Source of the DNA: Scylla paramamosain
Taxonomy: Eukaryota > Arthropoda > Malacostraca > Decapoda > Portunidae
Assembly (NCBI RefSeq): GCF_035594125.1
Contig: NC_087158.1
Span: 6,870,501-6,934,500, forward strand
Direction of reading: 5' to 3'
Length of the DNA: 64,000 bases
How positions within the stretch are numbered: position 1 is the first letter of the stretch; the number at the start of each line of letters is the position of its first letter. Positions 5,251 to 51,770 of this stretch are shown piece by piece. The position numbers and the translations under genes were made by a program. Below the pieces are notes generated by a model. The model saw only the letters and a list, made by a program, of their open reading frames with translations, was not told the DNA's origin and made no database searches.

Positions 5251-8200
5251 GTCGTTTCATATATCTATATATGGGTCTTTGCATGAATTTTGGCTTTTTG
5301 GTAACTAACAATGTCATAACACTCAAAATGCACGTTTTTTTTTGGCAGTATTGTTCTGTTTCTCCATATAGAGTGTTTTTCATGCGTTTTACCCTTTTGA
5401 TACCAAGTAAATAAAAAAAAACACTCATAATACACGTTTCTCGTGATGTCTTAATTTTTCCCATATAGGATATTTCCGATTCATTTAAGCTTTTTTTTAC
5501 AAAACACTCAAAATAATTGTTTTGTATGCGTTTTAGCGTTTTCGTATGAAAGGAGCTTAAAAACACTTAAAGGCTAGTTATTGGTAAAAGTTGGTTTTAT
5601 TCCCATGTAATGTGATTGCCCTGCTTTTTAGTGCTTTATTGCCTAACACGCTCAAAAAAACTCAAGACACTTTTCTGGTAATATTTTTTTTTTTCACACA
5701 AAGCTAGTTTCGCATGCAATTTGGTGTTTTGGTAAGTAAAAATGTTAAAAATATTCAAAATACACCCATTTGGTAAGGTTGTTCTGTTTCTCAATTAAGA
5801 GTGTTCTTCATGAATTTCAGCATTTTGGTATCTAAGAAACATCTCCATATACACGAGTTTTTGCGTGTTTTGCCTTGTGGTTCTTGTGAAACTATAAAAC
5901 ACTCATTATACACGTTTCTCGTAATGTCCTTTTCTTTCCCAATATACGAGTAGAGTGCTTTGCAATTATTTTCGCGTTTTCTGTAGGTAACAAGCTCAAA
6001 AACACTCAAAATATAACTTTTTAGTAATATTATTCTATTTCTTCATATTAGTTGGTTTGCATCCGTTTTAATGTTTTTCTAAGTAAAACACTAAAAAAAC
6101 ACGTTTTCAGTAATTTTGTTTTGGATTCCCATAAAGATTCCAAATTATTTATCGTTTTGGTGCCTAACTTGCTGAAAAACACTCAAAAGACAGGTATCTG
6201 GTAAAGTCGTTTAATTTCCTCATGTAGGTGGCTTTGCATACACTTTAGGGTTTGGTACATAACAGTCCGAAAAAAAAAAAAGCTAAAATTAACTTTTTTC
6301 ATAATATTATTTTTTCATATAATTTCCCTGAAATTTGCCAGAATTTTGGCATCTCGGTACCTATGAAGATAATTAACAAAAAAAAAAAAATTCCGTTTTA
6401 ATTAATTTATTTATTTCTCTATAAAGAGTGTTATTTGTGGGTTTTAACTCTTTTCGTACTCATGGAACTTAAAAACACTCATAATACACGTTTCTCGTAA
6501 TGTCCTTTCGTTTCCCAAACATAGGGTTCTTTGTATGTATTTAAGCGTTTTTATACGTAAGGTATCAAAAACACGTAATTTTTCGTAATGTTATTTTGTT
6601 TCTCAATAAAGGGTGTTTTGCATGCATTTTAGCGTTTTAGTATGTAAGGAGCTGAAAAACACTTAAAGACAAGTTCTTGGTAAATGTTGGTTTTTTTCCT
6701 ATGTAATGTCATTGCCCTGCTTTTTTGTGCTTTATTGCCTAACACGCTCAAAAACACTCAAAAGACACTTTTTTTCTGGTAATGTCATTTATTTCCAACA
6801 TAAAGCTAGTTTCGCATATAATTTCGGGTTTTGGTTACTAAGAATGTGAAAAATACTCAAAATACACTCATTTCCTAAGATTGTTCTGTTTCTCAATTAA
6901 GAGTGTTATTCATGAATTTCAGCATTTTGGTATCTAAGAAAAATCTCCATATACACGAGTTTTTGCGTTTTTTGCCTTATGGTTCTTGAAAACTATTAAA
7001 ACATTCATTATACAATTTTCTTGTAATATCCTTTTGTTTCCCAATATAGACTGCTTTGCATTCATTTTTGCGTTTTTTGCAGGTAACAAGCTCAAAAACA
7101 CTCAACTTTTTTGTAATGTTATTCTATTTCTTCATATTGGTTGGTTTGCATCCGTTTTAGCGTTCTACGCTAAAACTGAAAAGACACGTTTTCAATAATA
7201 TTGTTGAAATTGCTGAAAACACCCAAAGACACGTTTCCTGTAAAGTCGTGTAATTTCCCCATATAGGTGGCTTTGCATGCACTTCCGGGTTTCGTACATA
7301 ACTCCGGAAAAAGCTAAAATTATTAGCTATTATTAAAATTTATGTTTTTTTTCACATAATTTCCCTGAATTTTCTCAGAATTTTGGCATCTCGGTACCTA
7401 TAAAGATGAATAACAAAAAAAAAAATCTATTTTTTTATTTATTTTTTTTCTCTATAAAGAGTGTTATTTGTGGGTTTTAGATTTTTAGTACTTAAAAATA
7501 CTCATAATACACGATTTTCGTAATGTCCTTTCGTTTCACAAACATAGGGTTCTTTGCATGTATTTAAGCGATTTTATAGGTAACACGATCAAAAACACTC
7601 AAAATACATGTTTTTGGTAATGTTATTCTGTTTCTCCATAAAGGTTGTTTTCCATGCGTTTAACGTTTTGGTATGTAAGGAGTTAAAAAACACTTAGAGG
7701 CAAGTTCTTCGTAAAATTTGGTTTTATTCCAGTGTAATGTGATTGTTCTGCTTTTTTAGTGTTTTGTTGCATATAACGCTCAAAAACACTCAAGACACTT
7801 TTCTAGTAATGTAATTTTTTTCCCACATAAAGCTAGTTTCGAATGTAATTTGGGATTTTGGTAAAAATGTGAAAAACACTCAAAATACACACATTTGGTA
7901 AGGTAGTTCTGTTTTTCAATTAAAAGTGTTATTCATGAGTTTTAGCGTTTTGGTATGTAAGAAACTTCTTTATATACACGAGTTTTTGCGTTTTTTGCCT
8001 TGTGGTTCTTGTGAAACTATAAAACACTCATTATACACGTTTCTCGTAATGTCCTTTTGCTTCCCAATATAGAGTGCTTTCCATCCATTTGCGCGTTTTT
8101 TGTAGGTAAAAGCTCAAAAACACTTTTTGGTAATGTTATTCTATTTCTTCATATTTGTTGGTTTGCATCCGTTTTTGCGTTTTTCTACGTAAAACACAGA

Positions 8201-11200
8201 AAAAGACACGTTTTCAGTAATTTTGTTTTGGATTCACATATTGATTGACTTCCATATTATTTATCGTTTTGGTGTCTAACATGCTGAAAAACACTAAAAA
8301 GACAGGTTTCTGGTAAAGTTGTTTAACTTCCTTATATAGATGGCATGCACTTGAGAGTTTGGTACATAAAAATCCAAAAAAAGAGCTATAATTAACTTTT
8401 TTGATAATGTTCTTTTTTCCACATAAATTCCCTGAATTTTGGCAGAATTTTGGCATCTTGGTACCTATGAAAAACAATATAAAAAAAAAAAGCTATTTTT
8501 TTATTTTATTTTATTATTTTTTTTCTCTATAAAGAGTGTTATTTTTGGGTTTTAACGTTTTGGTACTTAAGGAACACTTAAAAACACTTAAAAACACTTA
8601 AAACACATGTTTTTAGTAATGTTATTCTGCTTCTCCATAAAGGAGTTTTTTGCATGCCTTTTAGCGTTTTGGTTTGTAAGGTCAAAAACACTTCAAGGCA
8701 AGTTCTTGGTAAAAGTTAATTTTATTCCCATGTAATGTGATTGCCCTGTTTTTTTTTTTTTTGTGTGTGATTTATTGCCTAACACGCTCAAAAACACTCA
8801 AAAGACACTTCTAGTAATGTCATTTCTTTTTCCAACATAGTTTCGCGTGCTATTTGGGGTTTTGCTACGAATGTGAAAAACACTCAAAATATACGCATTT
8901 GGTAAGGTTGTTCTGTTTCTCAATTAATACTGTTATTCGTGAGTTTCATCATTTTGGTATCTAAGAAACTCCTTTATATACACGAGTTTTTGCATTTTTT
9001 GCCTTGCGGTTCTTGTGAACCACAAGTTCTTTTGCTCAAAAATAATAAGACACTCATACACGTTTATCGTAATGTCTTTTTGTTTCCCAATATGGAGTGC
9101 TTTTCATCCATTTTCGCGTTTTTTGTAGGTAACAAGCTCAAAAACCCTCAAAATGTACCTTTTTGGTAATATTATTTTATTTCTTCTTATTGGTTGGTTT
9201 GCATCCGTTTTAGCGTTTTTCTACGTAAAACACCGAAAAGACACTTTTTCAGTAATTTTGTTTTAGATTCCCATATAGAATGACTTGCATGTTATTTACC
9301 GTTAGGGTGCCTAACAAGCTGAAAAACACTCATAAGACAGTTTTCTGGCAAAGACGTTTAATTTCCCCATATAGGTAGCTTTGCATGCTCTTTAGGGTTT
9401 GGTACATAACAGTACAAAAAAAAAAGCTAAAATTAACTTTTTTGATAATTGACTCATAATTTCCTGAATTTTGCCCAAATTTTGGCATCTCGGTACCTGT
9501 GAAGATGAAAAAAAAAGAAAAAAATATCGTATTTTTTTATTTTATTTTATTTTTTATTTTTTTTCTCAATAAAGAGTGTTATTTCTGGCTTTTAGCTTTT
9601 TGGTAAAGATCTTAATAACACTGATAATACACGTTTCTCGTAATGTCTTTTAGTTTCCCAAAAATAGGGTTCTTTGCATGTATTTAAGCGTTTTTATTGG
9701 TAACATGATCAAAAACACTCAAAATATATGTTTTTGGTAATGTTATTCTCTATCTCCATAAAGTGTGTTTTGCATGCGTTTTAGCGTTTTGGTATATAAG
9801 GAGCTCAAAACACTTAAAGGCAAGTTCTTGGTAAAAATTGATTTTATTTCCATGTAAAGTGATTCCCCTGCTTTTTAGTGCTTTATTGCCTATCACGCTC
9901 AAAAACACTCAAAAGACACTTTTCTGGTAATGTCATTTTTTTTCCCACATAAAGCTAGTTTCACATGCAATTTGGGATTTTGGTAACTAAGAATGTGAAA
10001 AGCACTCAAAATACACGCATTTAGTAAAGTTGTTCTGTTTCTTAATTAAGAGTGTTATTCATGAGTTTAAGCATTTTGGTATCTAGGAAACTTCTCCATA
10101 TACAGGAGTTTTTGCGTTTTTTGGCTTGTGGTTCTTTTGAACTATAAAACATTCATTATACACTTTTCTTGCAATGTCCCTTTGTTTCCCAATATAGAGT
10201 GCTTTGTATCAATTTTCGCGTTTTTTTTTTTTGTAGGTAACAAGTTCAAAAACACTCAAAATATACCTTTTTTGTAATGTTTTTCTACTTCTTGATATTG
10301 GTTGGTTTACATCCGTTTTAGTGTTTTTCTTCGTAAAACACTGAGAAGACACGTTTTCAGTAATTTTGTTTTGGTTTGCCATATAGAGTGAGTTCTTCAT
10401 TATTTATCGTTTTGGTGCCTAACATGCTGAAAAACACTTAAAACACAGATTTCTGGTAAGGTCGTTTAATTTCCTCATATGGGAGGCTTTGCATGCACTT
10501 TAGTGTTTGATACATAACTGTCCGAAAAAAAGCTAATATCAACTTTTTGATATAAATTTCTTATCATATAATGCCCTAATTTTTCCCAGAATTTTGGCAT
10601 CTCGGTACCTATGAAGGTGAATACCAAAAAAAAAAAAAAAAAAATCCTTATACTTATTTATTTTTTTATTTATTTATTTTTTTTTCTAAATAACGAGTGT
10701 TATTTGTGGGTTTTAGCTTTCTGGTAGTTAAGGAACTTAAAAACACTCATAATACACGTTTCTCGTAATGTCCTTACGTTTCCCAAACATACTCGTAAGG
10801 TTCTTTGCATGTATTTAAGCGTTTTTATAGATAACATTATCAAAAACACTCAAAATACAGGTTTTTGGAAATGTTATTATGTTACTCCATAAAGTTTGTT
10901 TTCCATGCGTTTTAGCGGTTTGGTATGTATGGAGCTCAAAAACACATATTGGCAAGTTTTTGGTAAAACTTGGTTTTATTCCCATGTAATGTGATTGCCC
11001 TGCTTTTTAGTACTTCATTGCCTAACACGCTAAAAAACAATTAAAAGACACTTCTGATAATGTCATTTTTTTCCCTCATAAAGCTAGTTTCTTATGCTAT
11101 TTTGGGTATTGCTAACTAAGAATACGAAAAACACTCAAAATACAGGCATTTCCTAAGGTTGTTCTGTTTCTCAATTAAGATTGTTATTCATGAGTTTCAG

Positions 11201-14200
11201 CATTTTGGAATCGAAGAAACTTCTTTATATACACGAGTTTTTGCGTTTTTGTACGTAAAACACTGAGAAGATACATTTTCAGTAATTTTGTTTTTGATTC
11301 CCATATAGAGTGAGTTCCTTATTATTTATCGTTTTGGTGCCTAACATGCTGAAAAACACTCAAAAGACAGATTTCTGGTAAGGTCGTTTAATTTCCTCAT
11401 ATAGGAGGCTTTGCATGCACTTTAGGGTTTGGTACATAACAGTCCGACAAAAAAGCTAAAATTACCTTTTTTGATAATATTCTTTTGTTCATATAATTTT
11501 CCTGAATTTTTCCAGAATTTTGGCATCTCGGTACCTATGAAGAAAAAAAAAATCCTATTTTTTGTTTTTATTTTCTAAATAAAGAGTGTTATTTGTGGGT
11601 TTTAGCTTTTTGGTACTTAAGGAACTTAAAAAAAACACTCATAATACACGTTTCTCGTAATGTCCTTTTGTTTCCCAAACATAGTGTTCTTTGCATGTAT
11701 TTAAGCTTTTTTATAGATAACATGATAAATATCACCCAAATTACATGTTTTTGGTAATATTATTCTGTTTCTCCATAAAGTTTGTTTTGCATGCGTTTTA
11801 GCGGTTTGGTATATAAGGAGCTCAAAAACATTTAAAGGCAAGTTCTTGGTAAAAATTGGTTTTATTCCAATGAAAAGTGATTGCCCTGCTTTTTAGTGCT
11901 TTATTGCCTATCACGATCAAAAACACTCAAAAGACATTTTTCTGGAAATGTCATGTTTTCCCACATAAATCTGGTTTCGCATGAAATTTGGGTTTTTGGT
12001 AACTAAGAATATGAAAAACACTCAAAATACATGAATTTGGTAAGGTTGTTCTGCTTCTCAATTAAGAGTGTTATTCATGAGTTTCAGCATTTTGGTATCT
12101 AGGAAACTTCTCCATATACACGAGTTTTTTGCGTTTTTTGCCTTGTTGTTCTTTTGAACTATAATACACTCATTATACACTTTTATAGCAATGTCCCTTT
12201 GTTTCCCAATATAGAGTGCTTTGTATCAATTTTAGCGTTTTTTTGTAGGTAACAAGCTCAAAACACTCAAAATATATTTTTTTGGTAATGTTTTTTTCTA
12301 TTTCTTGATATTGGTTGGTTTGCATCCATTTTAGCGTTTTTCTACGTAAAACATTGGGAACACACGTTTTCAGTAATTTTGTTTTGGATTCCCATATAAA
12401 GTGAGTTCCTTATTATTTATCATTTTGGTGCTTAACATGCTGAAAAACACTAAAAAGACAGATTTCTGGTAAGGTCGTTTAATTTCCTTATATAGGAGGC
12501 TTTGCATGCAGTTTAGGGTTTGGTACATAACAGTTCGAAAAAAAACAACTAAAATCAACTTTTTTTGATAATATTCTCTTATCATATAATTGCCTTGAAT
12601 TTTCCCAGAATTTTGGCATTTCGGTACCTATGAAGATGAATAACAAAAAAAAAAAAAATCCTATTTTTTTTTTTTTTTATTTATTTATTTATTTTATTTT
12701 TTTTCTAAATAAAGAGTGGGTTTTAGATTTTTGGTACTTAAACTTAAAAACTCTCATAATATACGTTTCTCGTAATGTCCTTTTGTTTCCCAAACATAAG
12801 GTTCTTTGCATATATTTAAGCGTTTTTATAGATAATATGATCAAAAATACTCAAAATACATGTTTTTGGTAATTTTATTCTGTTTCACCATAAAGTGTAT
12901 TTTGCATGCGTTTTAGTGTTTTGGTATATAAGGAGCTCAAAAAGACTTAAAGGCAAGTTCTTATTAAAAATGGGTTTCATTCAAATGTAATGTGATTGCC
13001 CTGCTTTTTAGTGCTTTATTGCCTATCAGGCTCAAAAACACTCAAAAGACTTTTTTCTGGTAATGTCATTTTTTTCTTACATAAAGCTGGTTTCGCATGC
13101 AATTTGAGGTTTTGGTAACTAAGAATGTGAAAAGCTCTCAAAATACACGCATTTAGTAAGGTTGTTCTGTTTCTCAATTAGGAATGTTATTCATGAGTTT
13201 CAGCATTTTGGTATCTAGGAAACTTCTCCATATCCACAAGTTTTTGCGTTTTTTGCCTTTTGGTTCTTTTGAACTATAAAACACTCATTATACACTTTTC
13301 TTGCAATGTCCTTTTATTTCCTAATATAGAGTGCTTTGCATCAATTTTCGCGTTTTTTGTAGGTAACAAGCTCAAAAACACTCAAAATATACCTTTTTGG
13401 TAATGTTTTTCTTTTTTTTTTTTTTAATTGGTTGGTTTGCATCCCTTTTAGCGTTTTTCTACGTAAAACACTGAGAAGACACGTTTTCAGTAGTTTTGTT
13501 TGGATTCCCATATAGAGTGAGTTCCTTATTTATTTATCGTTTTGGTGCCTAACATTCTGAAAAACACTCAAAAGACAGATTTCTTTTAAGGTCGTTTAAT
13601 TTCCTCATATAGGAGGCTTTGCATGCACTTTAGGGTTTGGTATATAACAGTCAGAAAATAAAGCTAAAATTAACTTTTTTGATAATTTTCTTTTATCATA
13701 TAATAGCCCGGAATTTTCCTAGAATTTTGGAATCTCGGTACCTTTGAAGATGAATAACAAAAAAAACAAAATCCAATTTTTTTTATTTTTATTTATTTAT
13801 TTTTCTAAATAATGAGTGTTATTTGTGGGTTTTAGCTTTTTGGTACTAAAAAAACACTCATAATACATATTTCTCGTAATGCCCTTTCGTTTCCAAAACA
13901 TAACGTTCCTTGCATGTATTTAAGCGTTTTTATAGATAACATGATCAAAAACACTCAAAATACATATTTTTGGTAATGTTATTCTGTTTCTCCATAAAAG
14001 GTGTTTTGCATGCGTTTTAGCGTTTTGGTATGTAATGAGCTCAAAAACACCTAAAGGCAAGTTCCTGGTAAAAGTTGGTTTTATTCCCATGTAATGTGAT
14101 TGCCCTGCTTTTTAGTGGTTTATTGCCTAACACGCTCAAAAAACACTCGAAAGACATTTTCTGGTAATATTTTTTTTTTCCAACATAAAGCTAGTTTCGC

Positions 14201-15765
14201 ATGGAATTTGGGGTTTTGGTAACTAAGAATGTGAAAAACACTCAAAATACAGGCATTTAGTAAGGTTGTTCTGTTTCTTAATTAAAAGTGTTATTCATGT
14301 GATTCAGCATTTTGGTATGTAAGAAACTTTTTTATGTACACGAGTTTTTTGAGTTTTTTGCCTTGTGGTTCTTGTGAAACTGTAAAACACTCATTATACA
14401 CGTTTCTCGTAATGTCCTTTTCTTTCCTAATATAGAGTGCGTTTCATCCATTTTCGCTTTTTCTGTAGGTGACAAGCTCAAAAACACATCAAAATATATC
14501 TTTTTGGTAATGTTATTCTATTTCTTCATATTGGTTGGTTTGCATCCGTTTTAGCGTTTTTCTACGTAAATCACTGAAAAGACACATTTTCAGTAATATT
14601 GTTGAAATTGCTGAAAAAAAAAACACTCAAAAGACAGGTTTCTGGTAAAGTCGAATAATTTCTCCATATAGGTGGCTTTGCATGCACTTCAGGGTTTGGT
14701 ACATAACTCCGGAAAAAAGCTAAAATTATTTATTTTATAATTATTTTTTTTTACAAAATTTCCCTGAATTTTTCCAGAATTTTGGTACCTATGAAGATGA
14801 ATAACAATTTTTTTTTTCTCTATAAAGTGTTATTTGTGTGTTTTAGCTTTTTGGTACTTAAGGAACTTAAAAACACTCATAATACACGATTTTCTGAATG
14901 TCCTTTTCTTATACAAACATAGGGTCCTTTACATGTATTTAAGCGTTTTTATAAGTAACATGATCAAAAACACTCAAAATACATATTTTTGGTAGTTATT
15001 CTGTTTCTCCATAAAGGCTGTTTTACATGCGTTTTAGCGTTTTGGTATGTAAGGAGTTTAAAAAAACACTTAAAGGCAAGTTCTTCGTAAAAGTTGGTTT
15101 TATTCCCAAGTTGTGTGATTTTTCTGCTTTTTAGTGCTTTGTTGCATATCACGCTCAAAAACACTTAAAAGACATTTTTCTGGTAATGTCATTTAAGCGT
15201 TTTTATTGGTAACATGATCAAAAACACTAAAAATACATGTTTTTGGTGATGTTATTCTTTTTCACCATAAAGTGTATTTTGCATGCGTTTTAGTGTTTTG
15301 GTATATAAGGAGCTCAAAAAGACTTAAAGGCAAGTTCTTATTAAAAATTGTTTTTATTCCAATATAATGTGATTGCCCTCCTTTTTAGTGCTTTATTGCC
15401 TAACACGCTCAAAAACACTCAAAAGACATTTTTTTCTGGTAATGTCATTTTTTTCCCACATAAAGCTGGCTTCGCATGCAATTTGGGGTTTTGGTAACTA
15501 AGAATGTGAAAAGCACTCAAAATACACACATTTAGTAAAATTGTTCTGTTTCTCAATTAAGAGTGTTGTTCATGAGTTTCAGCATTTTGGTATCTACGAA
15601 ACTTCTTCATATACACTAGTTTTTGCATTTTTTGCCTTGTGGTTCTTTTGAACTATAAAACACTCATTATACACTTTTCTTGCAATGTCCTTTTCTTTCC
15701 CATTATAGAGTGCTTTGCATCAATTTTCGTGTTTTTTTTATAGGTATCAAGCTCAAAAACACTCA
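5251..15765 (+). repeat. Higher-order satellite array: left arm of the large palindrome
   Basis: About ten higher-order repeats of ~1.05 kb. Landmark monomers (GCATCTCGGTACCTATGAA and variants) start near 6,349, 7,388, 8,454, 9,486, 10,592, 11,525, 12,618, 13,730 and 14,785, so spacing is 0.93-1.11 kb. One monomer per repeat is longer (~150 bp) and carries TACACGAGTTTTTGCGTTTT. A recombined unit occurs near 15,190, where GTCATT is fused directly to TAAGCGTTTTTATTGG. The whole block has an inverted counterpart at 41,272-51,770 that shares this anomalous junction. Satellite stops abruptly after CTCAAAAACACTCA at 15,765. Confidence 0.93.
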
Positions 15766-15915
15766 TTGTTATCGGTGGTATTGGAATTTTAGATTTATCA
15801 ATTTATCAGTTATTGGTTATTGGGCAATAAATTTATTGCCAATTATCAGTCATCACTGATAAGGTTATTGTTACCGATTTATCAGTTATCATGATTAATT
15901 TTTTTCGTCATCACG
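15766..15915. repeat. Short inverted-repeat cluster at the satellite/unique boundary
   Basis: About 150 bp of AT-rich sequence with repeated TTATCAGT words in both orientations. It contains a perfect 18-bp palindrome, GGCAATAAATTTATTGCC (15,833-15,850), and a second hairpin at 15,853-15,872 with arms TTATCAGT/ACTGATAA and a 4-nt loop. The two halves around the first palindrome are loosely complementary overall. It could be a small hairpin-type MITE (the words resemble hAT-type subterminal repeats) or a rearrangement scar; I cannot decide. It directly abuts a TA tract. Confidence 0.7.
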
Positions 15916-15920
15916 ACCAG

Positions 15921-16923
<1,003 letters not shown>

Positions 16924-17052
16924 AATTATCAACAACAAGCTTTTGATGGCTGAGGATGAAGCCCGAATGAACCAGATACAGGCCAGGTCATTAGCAGCAG
17001 GCATGGCCGCCGTGCCCTCCAAGCCCGGGTGTTGAACCTGAGACCAAGCCAG
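16924..17052 (+). pseudogene. Exon-like segment A, apparently with a 1-base frameshift
   Basis: The segment is bounded by a pyrimidine-rich tract ending in CAG and by the donor GTAGGT. Only one frame is open at its start (leading base A, then ATT ATC AAC...). It reads INNKLLMAEDEARMNQIQ followed by ARSLAAGMAAVPSKPGC and then a TGA at 17,034. After the stop, the next frame continues as VEPETKP up to the donor, so the simplest reading is one extra G in the CCCGGG of this exon, as a true frameshift or a base-call error. Alternatively the TGA is the genuine end of a protein and the donor is accidental. It lies ~950 bp upstream of exon B on the same strand and could belong to the same gene, but the splice phases do not join simply, so a linking exon or error is needed. 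The protein was not recognised. It is absent from the right-hand duplicate. Confidence 0.42.
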
Positions 17053-17783
17053 GTAGGTGTGTGGCCTGTACACCTAGCCACTTGTACTTCTTGTGCTTCA
17101 CTTCCTATGCTGTCACATGAAACATATTTATTCCTTGTTTTCACAATGTTTCACTCTTAATTTTTGTACTTGTGTTTTGCTATGTATGTATGGCAGCATG
17201 TCCTCAAAACACTAAGCAACATAAGAGGAAAGGAAATGAGGTGGTGATTTATTATTTCTCTTATATGACAATAAAAAAGTTGTCAAAGGCATGTCAAGTT
17301 TGTGTGCAGGATTCTGTATTTGAGTGTTGAAGCATGTGTAAATTCACTTGATAAGTATTTAGCTTTTTAAATTGATGTTTGGATGATAATGTGAAGGTTA
17401 ACATGGCATTGTACTAATCTCCTAAAAAAAAGGCTGGGAACCATCTGTTCATAATGTGTGTAGGAGGCTCAAGGTATCAGGTGTTTAAGCTTTTAGATTG
17501 TGATTTGATAGGAGGAGTTATGTTAAGAAGGTCACATGACCTTGGTTGTTCATGTTGTATAGAATGTTTTCCAATTAAATTTCTTTCAGTCTCCCTATCT
17601 TTTTTACAGAGATGTAGTTTAGATATTTGATTCCAAAGTCAGTTAAGTTTTTCTTTTTTCATTCCTGATCAACTCTGTGCTCTTTCATAAGAGGCATTGA
17701 TCTGTGCCTTTTCATAGAAGCATGGTCCATGACCTAGTGACATGCAAGGTTTATTGAAGGGACCTGAAAAAGAACCATTTTAC
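17053..17783 (+). other. Presumed intron or intergenic DNA, left arm only
   Basis: No coding signal was seen. This stretch exists only in the left arm; in the right arm the equivalent place is occupied by satellite. Confidence 0.4.
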
Positions 17784-18001
17784 AGTGATGAAATTATTCC
17801 TTTGAAAGTATTGACGGCTGATCTCTTTCTATAGGTGAGGGTTAGTGTTCTCTACTGTACCAAATACTGAACTGTCTTTTGTACTATTTCTCCATCTGTA
17901 TCCTACCCAGTAAAGGTAATAGACTGAGGAACTCCCCACCTTTGTTAATTTTTACTAAGTATTGTCCTAGTGGTAATCAGATGCAGCATTGATTTGCTTA
18001 G

Positions 18002-18143
18002 GAGTTGGGTATCTGAGAATGAGTGGTTATTGGCACCAAGTGCAGCTCAGTTGTGGGTAACTCCAGTTGTTGGGAGCATTCCATGGTACACAGATGGTGG
18101 GATAGTCTTGCCTTGGACTCTTACAAATGTGTACTATGTCCCA
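18002..18143 (+). CDS. Exon-like segment B of an unidentified gene (left copy)
   Basis: 142 bp bounded by TTGCTTAG and the good donor GTGAGT. The open frame (one leading base, then 47 codons) reads SWVSENEWLLAPSAAQLWVT followed by PVVGSIPWYTDGGIVLPW and TLTNVYYVP. It ends on a complete codon, and exon C starts on a complete codon, so B and C splice in frame across a 614-bp intron. The amino-acid composition (Trp, Pro and Gly in an ordered pattern) looks like real protein rather than chance, but I do not recognise the family. The right copy (39,094-39,235) has the same exon boundaries with Ser-to-Asn and Thr-to-Ala changes. Confidence 0.55.
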
Positions 18144-38479: not shown

Positions 38480-39093
38480 CTGTGTTGAAAATATATGCTG
38501 CCATAAGATGGAGAAAATACTGAATCTGATACTGAAAGAAATAAAGAACAAAATTGTTTACAAAAATTTTATCATAATTGTTTATAATATCAAGCAAATC
38601 TACAGAACATAGGACAACTCTACAACAAGCAGGCTCCAGGCTCCAGGCTGGCAAGCTTGAATAGTCTACACATCATATAAACTTTTGACTGAATAAAGAT
38701 TCAGATGTATCCATACTATTTTACAGGATTTAAGCTTTTAACAATGATACAAGTTCCCCATCAAAGGAACAACAAACTAAAGTCAAGTATGCGATCTCCT
38801 TCACTTTGTGTGCCTTCTTGTTGCAGTAAAATAATGCTCAGCTTCATTTATCCAATTTTCATGGTCTAAACGAAACCTTTCTTATCAAAGATAATATAAG
38901 TTGTGGGATTTAGTTCACAATCAAATCAACATTTCTCTATTTTACCTACATCTGACATCTCTATTTATATGAATTTTTCTACAGCTACCCACCCAGCAAG
39001 AGAAGAGTGCTGTGGAGATCTCCATCACCCACAATAAGTCCCTGAAATGCCTAAATAAACTTGGGATTCATGTTAAATAAAAACAAAACTCAC

Positions 39094-39235
39094 TGGGACA
39101 TAGTACACATTTGCAAGAGTCCAAGGCAAGACTATCCCACCATCTGTGTACCATGGAATGCTCCCAACAACTGGAGTTACCCACAACTGAGCTGCACTTG
39201 GTGCCAATAACCACTCATTCTCAGATACCCAATTC
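39094..39235 (-). CDS. Exon-like segment B, right copy
   Basis: Inverted duplicate of 18,002-18,143 with the same boundaries (TTAG acceptor, GTGAGT donor) and an open frame: NWVSENEWLLAPSAAQLWVT, PVVGSIPWYTDGGIVLPW, TLANVYYVP. Differences from the left copy are Ser-Asn at the first full codon and Thr-Ala near the end. Satellite begins ~220 bp upstream of the exon, so no promoter or exon A accompanies it. It is best regarded as a partial gene duplicate. Confidence 0.5.
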
Positions 39236-39453
39236 CTAAGCAAATCAGTGCTGCATCTGATTACCACTAGGACAATACTTAGTAAAAATGAACAAAGGTG
39301 GGGAGTTCCTCAGTCTATTACCATTACTGGGTAGGATACAGATGGAGAAATAGTACAAAAGACAGTTCAGTATTTAGTACAGTAGAGAACACTAACCCTC
39401 ACCTATAGAAAGAGATCAGCCATCAATACTTTCAAAGGAATAATTTCATCACT

Positions 39454-41271
39454 TTTACGAAGAATTTGCCTTTAAGTATTTTTTAACCCCTTATATACCA
39501 AACCGCTAAAACACATGGAAAACAAACTTTATGGAGAAACAGAATAATATTACCAAAAGCATGTATTTTGAGTGTTTTTGATCATGTGATCTATAAAAAC
39601 GCTTAAGTACATGCAAAGAACATTATGTTTGGGAAACAAAAGGACATTACGAGAAACGTGTATTATGAGTGTTTTTATAAGTTCCTTAAGTACCAAAAAG
39701 CTAAAACTCACAAATAACACTCTTTATTTAGAAAATAAAAAATCAAAAAATAAAATAAATAGGATTTTTTTTTTTTTGTTATTCATCTTCATAGGTACCG
39801 AGATGACAAAATTCTGGGAAAATTCAGGGCAATTATGCGATAAAAGAATATTATCAAAAAAGTTAATTTCAGCTTTTTTTTTTTTTCGGACTGTTATGTA
39901 CTAAACCCTAAAGTGCATGCAAAGCCTCCAATATGAGGAAATTAAACGACCTTACCAAAAATCTGTGTTTTGTGTTTTTAAGCATGTTAGGCACCAAAAC
40001 GATAAATAATAAGGAACTCACTCTATATGGGAATCCAAAACAAAGTTACTGAAAACGTGTCTTCTCAGTGTTTTACGTAGAAAAACGCTAAAACGGATGC
40101 AAACCAACCAATATCAAGAAGTAGAAAAACATTAACAACAAGGTATATTTTGAGTGTTTTTGAGCTTGTTACCTACAAAAAAACGCGAAAATTGATACAA
40201 AGCACTCTATATTGGGAAACAAAGGGACATTGCAAGAAAAGTGTATAATGAATGTTTTATAGTTCAAAAGAACCACAAGCCAAAAAACGCAAAAACTCGT
40301 GTATATGGAGAAGTCTCCTAGATACTAAAATGCTGAAACTCATGAATAGCACTCTTAATTGAGAAACAGAACAACTTTACTAAATGCGTGTATTTTGAGT
40401 GCTTTTCACATTCTTAGTTACCAAAAACCCCAAATTACATGCGAAAATAGCTTTGTGGGGGAAAAAAAAAGACTTTACCAGAAAAGTGTCTTTTGAGTGT
40501 TTTTCAACGTGATAGGTAATAAAGCACTCAAAAGCAGGACAATCACATTACATTAGAATAAAAATATTTTTTTACCAAGAACTTGCCTTTAAATGTTTTT
40601 GAGCTCCTTATATACAAAACTGCTAAAACGCATGCAAAACACACTTTATGGAGAAACAGAATAACATTACCAAAACCTTGTATTTTGAGTGTTTTTGATC
40701 ATGTTATCTATAAAAACGCTTAAATACATGCAAAGAACCTTATGTTTGGGAAACGAAAGGACATTACGAGAAACGTGTATTATGAGTGTTTTTAAGTTCC
40801 TTAAGTACCAAAAAGGTAAATCCCACAAATAACACTCTTTATTGAGAAAAAATAAATAAATAAATAAAAAAATAAAAAAAATAGGATTTTTAATTTTTCT
40901 TTATTTATCTTCATAGGTATCGAGATGCCAAAATTCTGGGAAAATTCAGGGCAATTATATGATAAAAGAATATTATCAAAAAATTTAATTTTAGCTTTAT
41001 TTTCGGCCTGTTATCTACCAAACCCTAAAGTGCATGCAAAGCCTCTTATATGAGGAAATTAAACGACCTTATCAGAAATCTCTCTTTTGAGTGCTGTTCA
41101 GCATGTTAGGCACCAAAACAATAAATAATAAAGAACTCACTCTATATGGGAATTCTAAACAAAATTACTGAAAACGTGTCTTCTCAGTGTTTTACGTAAA
41201 AAAAAACGCTAAAACGGGTGCAAACAAACCAATATAAAGAAATAGAAAAACATTACCAAAAAGGTATATTT
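39454..41271 (-). repeat. Satellite, '-' orientation, extra segment of the right arm
   Basis: 1.8 kb of higher-order satellite with landmarks near 39,797 and 40,915. It has no counterpart in the left arm, where 2.0 kb of unique DNA sits instead. Its own inverted match is at about 53,100-54,690, sharing variants such as GTACTTAAGCGC/GCGCTTAAGTAC-type changes, CTCATATTGG and GCTGAAATTAAC. Confidence 0.9.
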
Positions 41272-44200
41272 TGAGTGTTTTTGAGCTTGTTACCTATAAA
41301 AAACACGAAAATTGATGCAAAGCACTCTATAATGGGAAAGAAAAGGACATTGAAAGAAAAGTGTATAATGAGTGTTTTATAGTTCAAAAGAACCACAAGG
41401 CAAAAAATGCAAAAACTAGTGTATATGAAGAAGTTTCGTAGATACCAAAATGCTAAAACTCATGAACAACACTCTTAATTGAGAAACAGAACAATCTTAC
41501 TAAATGTGTGTATTTTGAGTGCTTTTCACATTCTTAGTTACCAAAACCCCAAATTGCATGCGAAGCCAGCTTTATGTGGGAAAAAAATGACATTACCAGA
41601 AAAAATGTCTTTTGAGTGTTTTTGAGTGTGTTAGGCAATAAAGCACTAAAAAGGAGGGCAATCACATTACATTGGAATAAAACCAATTTTGAGCTCCTTA
41701 TATAACAAAACACTAAAACGCATGCAAAATACACTTTATGGTGAAACAGAATAACATTACCAAAAACATGTATTTATTGTGTTTTTGATCATGTTACCAA
41801 TAAAAACGCTTAAATGACATTAACAGAAAAAATGTCTTTTAAGTGTTTTTGAGCGTGATATGCAACAAAGCACTAAAAAGCAAAAAAATCACATAACTTG
41901 GGAATAAAACTAACTTTTACGAAGAACTTGCCTTTAAATGTTTTTTTAACTCCTTACATACCAAAACGCTAAAACGCATGTAAAACACCCTTTATGGAGA
42001 AACAGAATAACTACCAAAAATGTGTATTTTGAGTGCTTTTGATCATGTTACTTATAAAAACGCCTAAATACATGTAAAGAACCCTATGTTTGTATAAGAA
42101 AAGGACATTAAGAAAATCGTGTATTATGAGTGTTTTTAAATTCCTTAAGTACCAAAAAGCTAAAACACACAAATAACACTTTATAGAGAAAAAAAAAAAA
42201 TTTATTCATCTTCATAGGTACCAAAATTCTGGAAAATTTCAAGGAAATTTTGTAAAAAAAAATTCATTTAAAAAAAATATCTTTAGCTTTTTTCCAGAGT
42301 TATGTAACAAACCATGAAGTGCATGGAAAGCCACCTATATGGAGAAATTACTCGACTTTACCAGAAACCTGTCTTTTGAGTGTTTTTTCCAGCAATTTCA
42401 ACAATATTACTGAAAACGTGTCTTTTCAGTGATTTACGTAGAAAAACACTAAAACGGATGCAAACCAACCAATATGAAGAAATAGAATAACATTTTCAAA
42501 AAGACATATTTTGATGTGTTTTTGAGCTTTTCACCTACAAAAAAAAATGCGAAAATGGATGAAACGCACTCTATATTAGGAAAGAAAAGGATATTACGAG
42601 AAACGTGTATAATGAGTGTTTTATAGTTTTAAAAGAACTACAAGGCAAAAAACTAAAAAAACTCGTGTACATAAAGAAGTTTCTTACATACCAAAATGCT
42701 GAATCTCATGAATAACACTTTTAATTAAGAAACAGAACAACCTTACTAAATGCCTGTATTTTGAGTGTTTTTCACATTCTTAGTTACCAAAACCCCAAAT
42801 ACCATGCGAAATTAGCTTTATGTGGGAAAAAAAAATATATTACCAGAAAATGTCTTTCGAGTGTTTTTGAGCGTGTTAGGCAATAAACCACTAAAAAGCA
42901 ATCACATTACATGGGAATAAAACCAACTTTTACCAAGAACTTGCCTTTAGGTGTTTTTGAGCTCATTACATACCAAAACGCTAAAACACATGCAAAACAC
43001 CTTTTATGGAGAAACAATAACATTACCAAAAATATGTATTTTGAGTGTTTTTGATCATTTTCTCTATAAAAACGCTTAAATACATGCAAAGAACCTTATG
43101 TTTGGGAAACGAAAGGACATTACAAGAAATATGTATTATGAGTGTTTTTTAGTTCGTTAAGTACCAAAAAGCTAAAACCCACAAATAACACTCATTATTT
43201 AGAAAAATAAATAAATAAAAATAAAAAAATAGGATCTTTTTTTTTGTTATTCATCTTCATAGGTACCGAGATGCCAAAATTCTGGGAAAATTCCGAGCTA
43301 TTATATGATAAAAGAAAATTATCAAAAAAGTTAATTTTAGTTTTTTTTTGGACTGTTATATACCAAACCCTAAAGTGCATGCAAAGCCTTCTATATGAGG
43401 AAATTAAACGAACTTAAAAGAAATCTGTCTTTTGAGTGTTTTTCAGAATGTTAGGCACCAAAACGATAAATAAATAAGGAACTCACTCTATATGGGAATC
43501 CAAACAAAACTACTGAAAACGTGTCTTCTCAGTGTTTTACGTAGAAAAACGCTAAAACGGATGCAAACCAACCAATTTAAAAAAAAATAGAAAAACATTA
43601 CCAAAAAGGTAAATTTTGAGTTTTTTTGAGCTTGTTACCTACAAAAAACGCGAAAATTGATGCAAAGCACTCTATATTAGGAAATAAAAGGACATTGCAA
43701 GAAAAGTGTATAATGAGTGTTTTATAGTTCAAAAGAACCAAAAGGCAAAAAACGCAAAAACTTATGGATATTTTCCTAGTTTAGTTTAGTTTTCCTTAGT
43801 TTCCTAGATACCAAAATGCTGAAACTCATGAATAACCTTCCTAATTGAGAAACAGAACAACCTTACTAAATGCGTGTATTATGAGAGCTTTTCACATTCT
43901 TAGTTACCAAAACCCAAAATTGCATGCGAAACCAGCTTTATGTGAGAAAAAAATGACATTACCAGAAAAGTCTTTTGAGTGTTTTTGAGCCTGATAGGCA
44001 ATAAAGCATTAAAAAACAGGGCAATCACATTACATTTGAATAAAACCAATTTTTAATAAGAACTTGCCTTTAAGTCTTTTTGAGCTTCTTATATACCAAA
44101 ACACTAAATCGCATGCAAAATACACTTTATGGTGAAACAGAATAAAATTACCTAAAACATGTATTTTGAATATTTTTGATCATGTTATCTATAAAAACGC

Positions 44201-47200
44201 TTAAATACATGTTTGGGAAACAAAAGGACATTACGAGAAACGTATATTATGAGAGTTTTTAAGTTTAAGTGCCAAAAATCTAAAACCCACTCTTTATTTA
44301 AAAAAAAAAAAAAATAAATAAATAAAAAAATAAAAAAAATAGAATTGTTTTTTTTGTTATTCATCTTCATAGGTACCGAAATGCCAAAATTCTGGGAAAA
44401 TTCAAGGCAATTATATGATAAGAGAATATTATCAAAAAAGTTGATTTTAGCTTTTTTTTTCGGACTGTTATGTACGAAACCCTAAACTGCATGCAAACCC
44501 TCCTATATAAGGAAATGAAACGACCTTACCAGAAATCTGTCTTTTCATTGTTTTCAGCATGTTAACCACCAAAATGATCAATAATAAGCAACTCACTTCA
44601 TATGGGAATCCAAAACAAAATTACTGAAAACGTGTGTTCCCAGTGTTTTACGTAGAAAAACGCTAAAATGGATGCAAACTAACCAATATCAAGAAATAGA
44701 AAAAACATTAACAAAAGGTATATTTTGAGTGTTTTTGAGCTTGTTACCTACAAAAAAAACGCTAAAATTGATACAAAGCACTCTATATTGGGAAACAAAG
44801 GGACAATGCTATAAAAGTGTATAATGAGTGTATTATAGTTCAAAAGAACAACAAGGCAAAAAACGCAAAAACTCGTGTATATGGAGAAGTTTCCTTGATA
44901 CCAAAATGCTGAAAGTCATGAATAACACTCTTACTTGAGAAATAGAACAACCTTACCAAATTCGTGCATTTTGACTGTTTTTCATATTCTTAGTTACCAA
45001 AAACCCAAATTTCATGCGAAACCAGATTTATGTGGGAAAACATGACATTTCCAGAAAAATGTCTTTTGAGTGTTTTTGAGCGTGATAGGCAATAAAACAC
45101 TAAAAAGCAGGGCAATCACTATTCATTGGAATAAAACCAATTTTTACCAAGAACTTGCATTTAAATGTTTTTGAGCTTCTTATATACCAAACCGTTAAAA
45201 CGCATGGAAAACAAACTTCATGGAGAAATAGAATAACATAACCAAAAACATGTAATTTGGGTGTTTTTATAATTTTATCTATAAAAAACGCTTAAATACA
45301 TGCAAAGAACATTATGTTTGGGAAAGAAAAGGACATTACGAGAAACGTGCATTATGAGTGTTTTTTTTTAAGTTCCTTAAGTACCAAAAAGCTAAAACCA
45401 ACAAATAACACTCTTTATTTAGAAAATAAAAACAAAAAATAGGAATTTTTTTCATCTTCATAGGTACCGAGATGCCAAAATTCTGGGAAAATTCAGGAAA
45501 ATTATATGAACAAAAGAATATTATCAAAAAAGTTAATTTTAGCTTTTTTTTTCGGACTGTTATGTACCAAACCCTAAAGTGCATGCAAAGCCTCCTATAT
45601 GAAGAAATAAAACGACTTTACCAGAAATCTGTCTTTTGAGTGTTTTTCAGCATGTTAGGCACCAAAATGATAAATAATAAAGAACTCACTCTATATGGGA
45701 ATCCAAAAGAAAATTACTGAAAATGTATCTCTTCAGTGTTTTACGTAGAAAAAGGCAAAAACTCGTGTATATAAAGAAGTTTCTTAGATACCAAAATGCT
45801 GAAACTCATGAATAACAATTTTAATTGAGAAACAGAACAACCTTAGCAAATGCTGTATTTTGAGTGTTTTTCATATTCCTAGTTAGCAATACCCAAAATA
45901 GCATAAGAAACTAGCTTTATGAGCGAAAAAAATGACATTATCAGAAGTGTCTTTTAATTATTTTTGAGCGTGTTAGGCAATGAAGTACTAAAAAGCAGGG
46001 CAATCACATTACATGGGAATAAAACCAACTTTTTCCAAGAATTTGCCAATATGTGTTTTTGAGCTCCATACATACCAAACCGCTAAAACGCATGGAAAAC
46101 AAACTTTATTGAGAAACAGAATAGCATTACCAAAAACATGTATTTTGAGTGTTTTTGATAATGTTATCTATAAAAACGCTTAAATACATGCAAAGAACCT
46201 TATGTTTGGGAAACGTAAGGACATTACGAGAAACGTGTATTATGAGTGTTTTTAAGTTTCTTAACTACCAAAAAGCTAAAACCCACAAATAACACTCGTT
46301 ATTTAGAAAGAAATAAAAAAATAAAAAAAATAAAAAAAAGATTTTCTATCTTTCTTTTTTTTTTCATTCACCTCCATAGGTACCGAGATGCCAAAATTCT
46401 GGGAAAAATTAGGGCAATTATATGATAAGAGATTTTTATAAAAAAGTTGATATTAGCTTTTATTCGGACTGTTATGTACCAAACAATAAAGTGCATGCAA
46501 AGCCTCCCATATGAGGAAATTAAACGACCTTACCAGAAATCTGTGTTTTGAGTGTTTTTCTGCATGTTAGGCACCAAAACGATAAATAATAAAGAACTCA
46601 CTCTATATGGCAAACCAAAAAAAAAATTACTAAAAACGTGTCTTCTCAGTGTTTTACGTAGAGAAACGCTAAAACGGATGCAAACCAACCAATATCAAGA
46701 AGTAGAAAAACATTACCAAAAAGGTATATTTTGAGTGTTTTTGAGCTTGTTACCTACAAAAAAACGCGAAAATTGATACAAAGCACTCTATATTGGGAAA
46801 CAAAGGGACATTGCAAGAAAAGTGTATAATGAATGTTTTATAGTTCAAAAGAACCACAAGCCAAAAAACGCAAAAACTCGTGTATATGGAGAAGTCTCCT
46901 AGATACTAAAATGCTGAAACTCATGAATAGCACTCTTAATTGAGAAACAGAACAACTTTACTAAATGCGTGTATTTTGAGTGCTTTTCACATTCTTAGTT
47001 ACCAAAATCCCAAATTGCATGTGAAACTAGCTTTATGTGGGGAAAAAAAATGACATAACCAGGAAAGTGTCTTTTGAGTGTTTTTGAGCGTGATAGGCAA
47101 TAAAGCACTAAAAAGCAGGGGAATCACTTTACATGGAAATAAAATCAATTTTTATCAAGAACTTGCCTTTAAGTGTTTTGAGCTCCTTATATACCAAAAC

Positions 47201-50200
47201 GCTAAAATACATGCAAAACACACTTTATGGAGAAAGAGAATAACATTACCAAAACATATATTTTGAGTGTTTTTGATCATGTTACCAATAAAAACGCTTA
47301 AATACATGCAAAGAACCGTATTTTTGGGAAACGAAAGGACATGACGAGAAACGTGTATTATCAGTGTTTTTAAGATCATTATTTACCAAAAAGCTAAAAG
47401 CCACAAATAACACTCTTTATAGAGAAAAAAAAAATAAATAAATACAATAAAATAAAAAAAATACGATATTTTTTTCTTTCTTTTTAATCTTCACAGGTAC
47501 CGAGATTCCAAAATTTGGGCAGAATTCAGGAAATTATGAGTCAATTATCAAAAAATTAATTATTTTTATTTTTTTCGTACTGTTATGTACCAAACCCTAA
47601 AGTGCATGCAAAGCCACCTATATGGGGAAATTAAACGTCTTTGCTAGAAAACTGTCTTATGAGTGTTTTTCAGCTTGTTAGGCACCCTAACGGTAAATAA
47701 CATGCAAGTCACTCTATATGGGAATCTAAAACAAAATTACTGAAAAAGTGTCTTTTCGGTGTTTTACATAGAAAAACGCTAAAACGGATGCAAACCAACC
47801 AATAAGAAGAAATAAAATAACATTACCATAAAGGTACATTTTGAGTGTTTTTGAGCTTGTTACCTACAAAAAACGCGAAAATGGATGCAAAGCACTCCCT
47901 ATTGGGAAACAAAAAGACATTACGAGAAACGTGTATAATGAGTGTCTTATTATTTTTGAGCAAAAAAACTTGTGGTTCAGAAGAACCACAAGGCAAAAAA
48001 ACGCAAAAACTCGTGTATATAAGGAGGTTTCTTAGATACCAAAATGCTGAAACTCATGAATAACAATATTAATTGAGAAACAGAACAACCTTACCAAATG
48101 CGTATATTTTGAGTGTTTTTCACATTCTTAGCAAAACCCCAAATAGCACGCGAAACTATGTTGGAAAAAGAATGACATTACTAGATGTGTCTTTTGAGTT
48201 TTTTTGAGCGTGTTAGGCAATAAATCACACACACACACACACAAAAAAAAAAACAAAACAAAACAGGGCAATAACATTACATGGGAATAAAATCAACTTT
48301 TACCAAGAATTTGCCTTGAAGTGTTTTTGACTTCCTTACAAGCCAAAACGCTAAAACGCATGCAAAAAACTCCTTTATGGAGAAGCAGAATAACATTACT
48401 AAAAACATGTGTTTTAAGTGTTTTTAAGTGTTTTTAAGTGTTCCTTAAGTACCAAAACGTTAAAACCCAAAAATAACACTCTTTATAGAGAGAAAAAAAA
48501 AAAAAAATAAAAAAATATCTTTTTTTTCATATTGATTTTCATAGGTACCAAAAAGGCCAAAATTCTGCCAAAATTCAGCGAATTTATGTGGAAAAAAGAA
48601 CATTATCAAAAAAGTTAATTATAGCTCTTTTTTCGGATCTTTATGTACCAAACTGTAAAGTGCATGCCACCTATATAAGGAAGTTAAACGACTTTACCAG
48701 AAACCTGTCTTTTCAGTGTTTTTGAGCATGTTAGGCACCAAAACGATAAATAATATGGAAGTCAGTCAATATGTGAATCCAAAACAAAATTACTGAAAAC
48801 GTGTCTTTTCAGTGTTTTACGTAGAAAAACGCTAAAACGGATGCAAAAAAACAAATACGAAGAAATAGAATAACATTACCGAAAAGTGTTTTTGAGCTTT
48901 TTACCTACAAAAAACGCGCAAAAAGATGGAATGCACTCTATATTGGGAAGCAAAAGGACATTACGAGAAACGTGTATAATGAGTGTTTTATAGTTTCACA
49001 AGAACCACAAGGCAAAAAACGCAAAAACTCGTGTATATAGAGAAGTTTCTTACATACCAAAACGCTAAAACTCATGAATAACACTTTTAATTGAAAAACA
49101 GAACTACCTTACCAAATGTGTGTATTTTGAGTGTTTTTCACATTCTTAGTTACGAAAATCCCAAATTACATGCGAAACTAGCTTTATGTGGGAAAAAAAT
49201 GACATTACCAGAAAAGTGTATTTTGAGTGTTTTTGAGCGTTATATGCAACAAAACACTAAAAAGCAAAATAATCACATTACACTGGAATAAAACCAAAAT
49301 TTACGAAGAACTTGCCTTTAAGTTTTTTTTAACTCCTTACATACCAAAACGCTAAACGCATGGAAAACAACCTTTATGGAGAAACAGAATAACATTACCA
49401 AAAACATGTATTTTGAGTGTTTTTGATCATGTTACCTATAAAATCGCTTAAATACATGCAAAGAACCCTATGTTTGTGAAACGAAAGGACATTACGAAAA
49501 TCGTGTATTATGAGTATTTTTAAGTTCCTTAAGTACCAATAATCTAAAACCCACAAATAACACTCTTTATTGAGAAAAAAATAATAAAAAAATAGATTTT
49601 TTTTGTTATTCATCTTCATAGGTACCGACATGCCAAAATTCTGAGAAAATTCAGGGAAATTATGTGAAAAAACAAAAAAAAATAATAATTCTAGCTTTTT
49701 CCGGAGTTATGTACGAAACCCGGAAGTGCATGCAAAGCCACCTATATGGGGAAAATTACACGACTTTACAAGAAACATGTCTTTGGGTGTTTTCAGCAAT
49801 TTCAACAATATTACTGAAAACGTGTTTTTTTCAGTTTTAGCGTAGAATGCTAAAACGGATGCAAACCAACCAATAAGAAGAAATAGAATAACATTACAAA
49901 AAAGTTGAGTGTTTTTGAGCTTGTTGCCTACAAAAAACGCAAAAATGAATGCAAAGAAGTCTATATTGGGAAACAAAAGTATATTACAAGAAAATTGTAT
50001 AATGAATGTTTTAATAGTTTTCAAAAACCATAAGGCAAAAAACGCAAAAACTCGTCTATATGGAGATTTTCTTAGATACCAAAATGCTGAAATTCATGAA
50101 TAACACTTGTAATTGAGAAACAGAACAACCTTACCAAATGAGTGTATTTGAGTGTTTTTCGCATTCTTAGTTACCAAAACCCGAAATTACATGCGAAACT

Positions 50201-51770
50201 AGCTTTATGTTGGAAATAAATGACATTACCAGAAAAAAAGTGTCTTTTGAGTGTTTTTGAGCTTGTTAGGCAATAAAGCACAAAAAAGCAGGGCAATGAC
50301 ATTACATGGGAATAAAACCAACATTTACCAAGAACTTGTCTTTAAGTGCTTTTCAGCTCCTTACATACTAAAATGCTAAAATGCATGCAAAACACCCTTT
50401 ATTGAGAAACAAAATAACATTACGATAAACATGAATTTTCAGTGTTTTGATCTCTTACGTATAAAAACGCTTAAATACATGCAAAGAACCCTATGTTTGG
50501 GAAACGAAAGGACATTACGAGAAACGTGTATTATGAGTGTTTTTAAGTTCCATGAGTACGAAAAGAGTTAAAACCCACAAATAACAGTCTTTATAGAGAA
50601 AATAAATAAATAAATTAAATTTAGGATTTTTTTTTTGTTATTTATCTTCATAGGTACCGAGATGCCAATATTCTGGCAAAATTTAGGGAAATTATTTGAA
50701 AAAATAATATTTTGAAAAAAGTTAATTTTAGCTTTTTTTTTGGACTGTTATGTACCAAACCCTAAAGTGTATGCAAAGCCACCTACATGAGGAAATTAAA
50801 CGACTTTACCAGATACCTGTCTTTTGAGTTTTTTTCGGCAAGTTAGGCACCAAAACGATAAATAATATGGAAGTCACTCTTTATGGGAATCCAAAACAAA
50901 ATTACTGAAAACGTGTCTTTTTTAGTGTTTTACTTAGAAAAACATTGAAACGGATGCAAACAAACCAATATGAAGAAATAGAATCATATTACTAAAAAGT
51001 TATATTTTGAGTGTTTTTGAGCTTGTTACCTACAGAAAACGCGAAAATAGTTGCAAAGCACTCTATATTGGGAAAGAAAAGGACATTACGAGAAACGTGT
51101 ATAATGAGTGTTTTATAGTTTCACAAGAACAACAAGGCAAAATACGCAAAAACTCGTGTATATGGAGATGTTTCTTAGATACCAAAATGCTGAAATTCAT
51201 GAAGAACACTCTTAATTGAGAAACAGAACAACCTTACCAAATGGGTGTATTTTGAATCTTTTTAACATTCTTACTTAGCAAAACCCCAAATTGCATGCAA
51301 AACTAGCTTTGTGTGAAAAAAAATATTACCAGAAAATTGTCGAGTTTTTTTGAGCGTGTTAGGCAATAAAGCACTAAAAAGCAGGGCAATCACATTACAT
51401 GGGAATAAAACCAACTTTTACCAATAACTTGCCTTTAAGTGTTTTTAAGCTCCTTACATACGAAAACGCTAAAACGCATACAAAACAAGTATTTTGAGTC
51501 TTTTGTAAGATTGTTACGTAAAAAAAACGCCTAAATGAATCGGAAATATCGTATATGGGAAAAATTAAAAGATATTACGAGAAACGTGTATTATGAGTGT
51601 TTTTGATTTTCGTGGTATCAAAAGGGTAAAACGCATGAAAAACACTCTATATGGAGAAACAGAACAATACTGCCAAAAAAAAGAAAAGTGCATTTTGAGT
51701 GTTATGACATTGTTAGTTACCAAAAAGCCAAAACTCATGCAAAGACCCATATATAGATATATGAAACGAC
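41272..51770 (-). repeat. Higher-order satellite array: right arm of the large palindrome
   Basis: 10.5 kb, the inverted copy of 5,251-15,765. Landmarks near 42,214, 43,261, 44,371, 45,462, 46,377, 47,496, 48,541, 49,620 and 50,653 pair in reverse order with the nine on the left, and each pair sums to between 56,969 and 57,008. Private variants are shared, such as the fused unit near 41,825 (AAATGACATT after CGCTTAAA) and GATACTAGTG-type changes. A ~25-bp insertion rich in TTTAG (about 43,775-43,800) is only in this arm. Confidence 0.94.

Follow-up and report, generated by a model that had tools for sequence, protein, structure and literature searches.

Does a large palindrome with closely matching arms record a young event at the place where it now stands, or can it be an older structure that was copied there? 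This question is raised by a stretch of 64,000 nucleotides from the decapod Scylla paramamosain (contig NC_087158.1, here C8:6,870,501-6,934,500; hereafter the window), in which arms of satellite and of gene-derived DNA lie in mirror orientation around a spacer. An earlier reading, made without database searches, had attributed the palindrome to a recent inversion-duplication or to gene conversion between its arms. Our analysis points to a different history: the window very probably holds a copy of a composite segmental duplication that involves satellite DNA and whose palindrome formed once and was then amplified. What seems to be a young palindrome would then be an older structure multiplied genome-wide.

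Architecture of the mirrored arms

Self-comparison of the window recovered two inverted pairs, placed as in the sequence-only reading. The outer pair, 5,244-15,765 and the reverse complement of 41,272-51,777, aligned over 10,378 bases with 9,955 matches and 423 mismatches (95.9% ungapped identity), 82 gap openings and a largest gap of 28 bp, and its coordinate sums stay within 56,985-57,035. The inner pair, 17,784-20,342 and the reverse complement of 36,953-39,453, aligned over 2,455 bases with 2,407 matches and 48 mismatches (98.0% ungapped identity) and five gap openings, two of them in microsatellites. What did not stand is the picture of continuous arms, as these are interrupted by unlike blocks: 15,766-17,783 (non-satellite, 2.0 kb, with exon A) lies opposite 39,454-41,271 (satellite, 1.8 kb). 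The main features are as follows.

5246..15765, + strand: left outer arm, higher-order satellite with a ~1.11-kb unit, running on into the DNA at its left in three of four amplified contexts
15766..17783, + strand: left-only block with (TA)80 and exon A (16,924-17,052), reading frame broken
17784..20342, + strand: inner arm on the left, made of captured gene DNA and carrying exon B (18,758-18,889)
20343..36952, + strand: spacer, captured gene DNA with long interspersed nuclear element (LINE) sequences and exon C (32,966-33,448)
15974..36949, + strand: extent of native-gene homology, with gaps, against the locus on contig C30
36946..36956, no strand: junction J1, where native homology ends and inverted gene DNA follows; at least 37 places, absent at the native locus
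36953..39453, - strand: inner arm on the right, an inverted copy that carries exon B' (38,479-38,348)
39448..39456, no strand: junction J2, where inverted gene DNA meets satellite with a 3-bp AGT overlap; at least 40 places
39454..41271, - strand: satellite X, present only on the right and keeping the phase of the right arm; matches 54,692-53,005 in inverted orientation and holds a 287-bp exact match to 46,721-47,007
41272..51775, - strand: right outer arm, inverted copy, 95.9% ungapped identity
51768..51780, no strand: junction J4, switch of satellite orientation from the right arm to a direct copy of unit L7; recurs at context C8b
51774..53150, + strand: third, direct copy of left-arm 12,260-13,655
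55886..56371, - strand: small separate inverted block in the outer array

The 16.6-kb spacer had been described as not palindromic, and it gave no inverted match within the window at E 1e-5 with the low-complexity filter on. It is single-copy between the arms within the window; elsewhere in the genome it is amplified along with the unit. Homology between the arms ends at both arm ends, where alleles would continue.

The satellite consists of ~96-bp monomers in a ~1,113-bp higher-order unit, a profile of which was matched along the window. Both arms show the same phase irregularities in the same order (894 to 352-418, 427 to 515, 924 to 7, 743 to 486), and neither has gained or lost a higher-order unit over the 10.5 kb, as had been noted previously from nine mirrored landmark monomers. 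The last of these jumps is the fused unit at 15,190 / 41,815, an anomaly that the two arms do indeed share. In a tree of unit copies, 11 of 12 left/right (L/R) pairs are exclusive sisters, with support of 0.84 for L4/R4 and 0.997 or more for the others, and the twelfth, L7/R7, forms a trio with O1, a unit outside the right arm. Partner units differ by 2-6% and the nearest non-partner units mostly by about 7-13%, the exceptions being O1 against L7/R7 (4.5-5.5%) and O3 against X2 (2.7%); chance resemblance of the arms is ruled out by this comparison.

Junctions shared across the genome

The assembly searched comprises 1.21 Gb in 234 contigs, and genome-wide counts rest on the best-scored candidates and are therefore lower bounds, with the window and the native locus included where stated. 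The inner-arm piece was matched at 98-100% identity at at least 40 places on 11 contigs (best 40 of 146 candidates; window and native locus included), and the exon-bearing DNA of the arm is thus not unique, contrary to its earlier description. A query that itself contains both J1 and J2 returned 59 rows from the best 40 of 7,058 candidates: J2 (39,452) is spanned at at least 40 places and J1 (36,951) at at least 37 of them, on 10 contigs, and both junctions fall within one uninterrupted match at at least 20 places, the window being included in each count.

Five contexts of 40-55 kb were read, namely the native locus on C30 and four amplified contexts, C8a, C8b, C2a and C3a. Beginning at the first position of the window and continuing across the gene piece, C8a, C8b and C2a align to it at about 94-99.7%, apart from local gaps, and all three carry the inverted B' piece joined to inverted satellite. 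In C8b, moreover, a single run at 98.9% covers 37,978-52,929, crossing J2 and J4 and continuing past the switch at 51,774; C8b is the one other locus read as far as J4. C3a has the satellite/gene join at 15,765 and the array irregularities as in the window. Because sites 15,765, 17,784 and 20,342 are continuous in all four amplified contexts (the latter two also at the native locus), and site 5,246 in three of the four, the left arm represents the unrearranged context.

The arms themselves give the same picture. In an inner-arm tree of four loci, the R copies group together (0.999) and the L copies split off from all others (0.993), and the divergence of inner arms between loci (L-L' 0.2-0.75%, R-R' 0.3-1.1%) is below that between L and R (1.5-2.5%). 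In the satellite, L and R differ by 4.4%, L and the C8a left arm by 1.66%, and R and the C8b right arm by 0.89%. On the inner-arm tree, the branches of the native locus, C3a, L and R meet near a single point. Since the junctions recur and the arms group L with L and R with R, we conclude that the palindrome formed once, close to the time of gene capture, and has been copied since. An inverted duplication did occur, as the sequence-only reading held; that it was recent at this locus is contradicted by the recurrence of the R junctions at at least 37-40 places and by the closer L-L' and R-R' similarity.

Copies above 90% identity and longer than 1 kb are many and lie on several contigs, which may or may not be separate chromosomes; in this they behave as a dispersed segmental duplication. 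The places listed in the inner-arm, P0122 and junction searches form a single block (up to ~2.1 Mb) on each of 11 among the 13 contigs, and two blocks on C20 and C41; C17 has one listed place and C30 the native gene. This blocked placement suggests heterochromatic, perhaps pericentromeric, blocks. Unit number is not stable as a general feature: the left array of C8b lacks the units matching most of L8-L9, a loss that is in phase. At C2a, an inverted satellite block (window 11,012-8,557 reversed) lies inside the left array.

The captured gene fragment

The three exons follow one another on the + strand in the order A, B, C, and exon B is 98% identical to isoform X3 of LOC135116190 (P0122) of Scylla paramamosain. 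The native locus on C30 aligns to window 15,974-36,949 with gaps, which defines a fragment of ~21 kb; no satellite match was found in its readable 35 kb. A genome search with P0122, in which 79 of 9,969 candidates were scored and loci were counted by hand, gave 80 matches, 76 of them to exon C (six of these being second pieces of a locus). Exon C thus occurs at at least 70 loci on 13 contigs, window and native locus included, and the 3' exons of the gene occur on C30 only among the scored matches. C30 carries exons B, C and the 3' exons, with a TGA in the span of one 3' match; the gene was read in part. Its native exon C translates exactly as in P0122, with no stop.

The exons of the window are a broken gene fragment, because the frame of exon A is broken relative to P0122, exon C has an in-frame TAA stop at 33,284, and no significant match to P0122 past residue ~265 was found in the window. 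A working host gene in the window was rejected on the same grounds. Five of 135 bases distinguish exon B from exon B', and three residues are changed, one on the left (B) and two on the right (B') relative to P0122; these differences fit neutral relics. Pfam and PDB searches of the exon peptides gave nothing convincing.

Points that weigh against the proposed history

Several points weigh against the history proposed here or limit it. At the native locus, a run of about 5 kb of N, which stops some 1 kb short of the match on its upstream side, could hold satellite. Neither J1 nor J2 was seen in the 40 kb read at C3a, and C8b is without J1 owing to a deletion there. The counts for J1 and J2 are lower bounds on copies and should not be read as a share of the total. 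The pairing of the native locus with C3a has a support of only 0.285 on the inner-arm tree. Moreover, L is nearer to the native locus (0.8-1.4%) than to R (1.5-2.5%), so a simple scheme in which R was copied from L after capture is not clean, and R may come from a second capture or from an early sister unit. The R satellite extends 1.8 kb past the gene join of L, a join placed alike in the window and all four amplified contexts, and R is without the exon A block; one copying step would not give this arrangement. A later shortening of the left array at 15,765, once the inversion was in place, was considered and rejected, the join being common to the window and the four amplified contexts.

Divergence rates and array conversion

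The inner and outer arms have diverged to different degrees (2.0 vs 4.1%, Fisher p 9e-8). Between L and C8a, the satellite is likewise about twice as diverged as the gene DNA (1.66% vs 0.72%). Because this twofold gap is also found between those two loci, one age suffices for both arm pairs, and two ages are also not needed because transversion-rich change is typical of the array (transition/transversion ratio 0.78 between non-partner units). Unit 9b alone stands out, with 2.2% between L and R compared with the rest (p 0.004), and a separate age for it is possible.

The longest identical runs between the arms are 145 and 230 bp, close to the 158 or so and 221 or so expected when mismatches are shuffled. 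Mismatches in the outer arms are clustered, a pattern that suits short conversion tracts donated by other units and not exchange between the arms; alleles shared with other units make up 20% vs 9% in a simple null, at frequency 0.1 or more. The right arm (41,272-51,775) carries more derived changes than the left, 234 vs 157 or 1.5 times as many, with 76 changes unresolved, and we have no explanation for this excess.

Two further relationships in the array had been overlooked earlier. The stretch 51,774-53,150 repeats left-arm 12,260-13,655 in direct orientation, and the divergence there, with O for this outside copy, is 4.2% for O-L, 4.2% for L-R and 5.2% for O-R; changes private to O, L and R number 33, 19 and 34. 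The stretch 53,005-54,692 repeats 41,070-39,451 in inverted orientation, at 5.6% divergence. The right-only satellite (39,454-41,271) is a mosaic, in which 39,451-40,050 is an inverted copy, at about 97%, of 54,692-54,040, and 40,351-41,050 in large part resembles the outer array in inverted orientation. Within it, 287 bases at 40,140-40,426 are identical to 46,721-47,007, in satellite units of the same orientation 6.6 kb apart, likely a recent conversion tract.

A proposed origin of the composite unit

Comparison with C30 shows that a ~21-kb fragment of LOC135116190 (exons A-C), native on that contig, was joined to the higher-order satellite array. At about that time, the far end of the fragment was joined to an inverted partial copy, comprising 2.5 kb of gene DNA and the same satellite array, and the palindrome arose; the shared junctions and the grouping of the arms show that this origin was single. 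Most likely, this inverted join was made by a broken or stalled replication end that folded back or switched template. A fold-back fits because the 3' part of the gene beyond the break was lost and the 16.6-kb spacer is within the reported range. At J1, the native match stops at 36,949 and is followed by two to three bases that fit neither parent clearly.

Amplification of the unit, palindrome included, is seen in its clusters on at least 10 contigs, and it probably proceeded through block duplication together with ectopic recombination from one satellite block to another. Since then, the arms would have drifted apart by ordinary mutation, together with short unit-to-unit conversion in the satellite. 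No function would be required by this account.

In an extract of a survey of human fold-back inverted duplications (PMC3907307), spacers range from 766 to 70,466 bp, with 20 of 21 under 15 kb. The events described there resemble the window in having inverted arms around a non-duplicated spacer, of a length range that takes in 16.6 kb, and in that the sequence past the break (here the 3' exons) is not in the window. Against the same extract, the crab unit differs in being interstitial and amplified, in having arms broken by unlike blocks, and in a J1 without clear microhomology.

Alternative explanations

The alternative that survives best concerns the origin of the ancestral palindrome and is compatible with amplification from a single origin. 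Here, one replication error would have produced an inverted triplication (+ - +), later trimmed and then amplified, of the duplication-triplication/inversion-duplication (DUP-TRP/INV-DUP) or origin-dependent inverted-repeat amplification (ODIRA) type. We regard this as possible, if doubtful. The direct third copy of unit L7 adjoins the right arm, and its divergence values and counts of private changes, given above, would suit three copies of similar age. One satellite unit in + - + orientation with copies of similar age is the likeness to such systems as described in the portions seen of PMC4352052 and PMC10766186, and the latter portion also reports inverted triplications in which secondary rearrangement enlarged the spacer. 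However, the third copy breaks off at an in-phase jump after only ~1.4 kb, satellite units are readily duplicated or converted, and a second direct copy of the gene piece was not seen in the window or in the 8 kb to its right. Relative to the same portions, a further difference is that the junctions showed no separate inverted repeat.

The composite units (satellite, gene core, inverted gene piece, inverted satellite) are nearly alike on at least 10 contigs and lie in one block on most of them. It is tempting to ask whether they serve as functional centromeric or pericentromeric modules, or whether exons B and B' give hairpin small RNAs against the native gene. We consider either very unlikely; if true, the former would give animals a counterpart to the centromeres built of inverted repeats in Candida tropicalis, as far as a partial text of PMC7292649 describes them.

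Maintenance of the palindrome by conversion between its arms, as in the palindromes of mammalian sex chromosomes, is similarly improbable. In its favor are the 287-base identity, which makes short array conversion probable, the clustering of outer-arm mismatches, and the inverted pair X2-O3, which is patchily closer (16/630 sites vs 42/598). Yet the arms differ by 2-4%, their longest identical runs are as shuffled, and similarity between loci (L-L', R-R') exceeds that between L and R within loci. Extracts of the relevant papers give arm identities above 99% for mammalian X palindromes (PMC8981503) and above 99.9% for human Y palindromes (PMC3723533); the crab arms fall short of 99%. Large inverted repeats are common to both systems, and the crab arms differ from those palindromes in being without arm-to-arm homogenization. 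Thus, conversion of whole arms, which the sequence-only reading had allowed, is contradicted, and small tracts are possible.

An assembly artefact, either a hairpin read or a misjoin of haplotypes, is also very improbable, and a private artefact at this locus is unlikely. The DNA is satellite-rich and an assembly gap of 100 N lies ~4.6 kb left of the window, but the arms have diverged by 2-4%, the junctions stand at other loci at 98-100%, and homology stops at both arm ends, where alleles would go on. The earlier argument against an artefact is upheld by this recurrence of junctions. Least probable of all is a recent local inverted duplication private to the window, for although the arms are 96-98% identical with matching unit order, the junctions occur at at least 37-40 places on 10 contigs and the arms group across loci, L with L and R with R.

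Relation to known duplications and significance

Duplicons of pericentromeric type that carry gene fragments are known from human examples. As in these, a gene fragment native elsewhere was joined to satellite-rich DNA and spread in blocks on many chromosomes; unlike them, the ~21-kb crab fragment carries its own inverted partial copy. The block is ordinary in kind and striking in copy number. Two papers on decapod repeats (PMC13130569, PMC10454600) were searched by term only, and the satellite is not claimed as undescribed.

The single-origin history proposed here would make the unit a natural experiment, in which one satellite inverted duplication, fixed once, can be sampled at dozens of loci with the native donor in the same assembly. 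In such an experiment, the loss of units, conversion, and mutation can be measured for satellite and for gene DNA in parallel.

Minor observations

Searches of the whole window for tRNA genes and Rfam families gave nothing convincing. Two LINE copies in the spacer, at 28,128-29,709 and 31,374-32,964, are related at 91.4%, and their protein relatives include Petrolisthes, Eriocheir, and Armadillidium. A LINE poly-A tail at 32,946-32,965 stands directly at the splice acceptor of exon C, in place of the acceptor tract; the tract is present at the native locus and in three copies, and none of the five contexts read showed the poly-A join. The 100-N gap lies on C8 at about 6.8658 Mb, and beyond it follow inverted satellite and then an inverted inner-arm copy at 6,856,238. 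Finally, the orientation of the array flips again at 55,886 and 56,371, delimiting a small inverted block that is separate from the palindrome and had likewise been missed.

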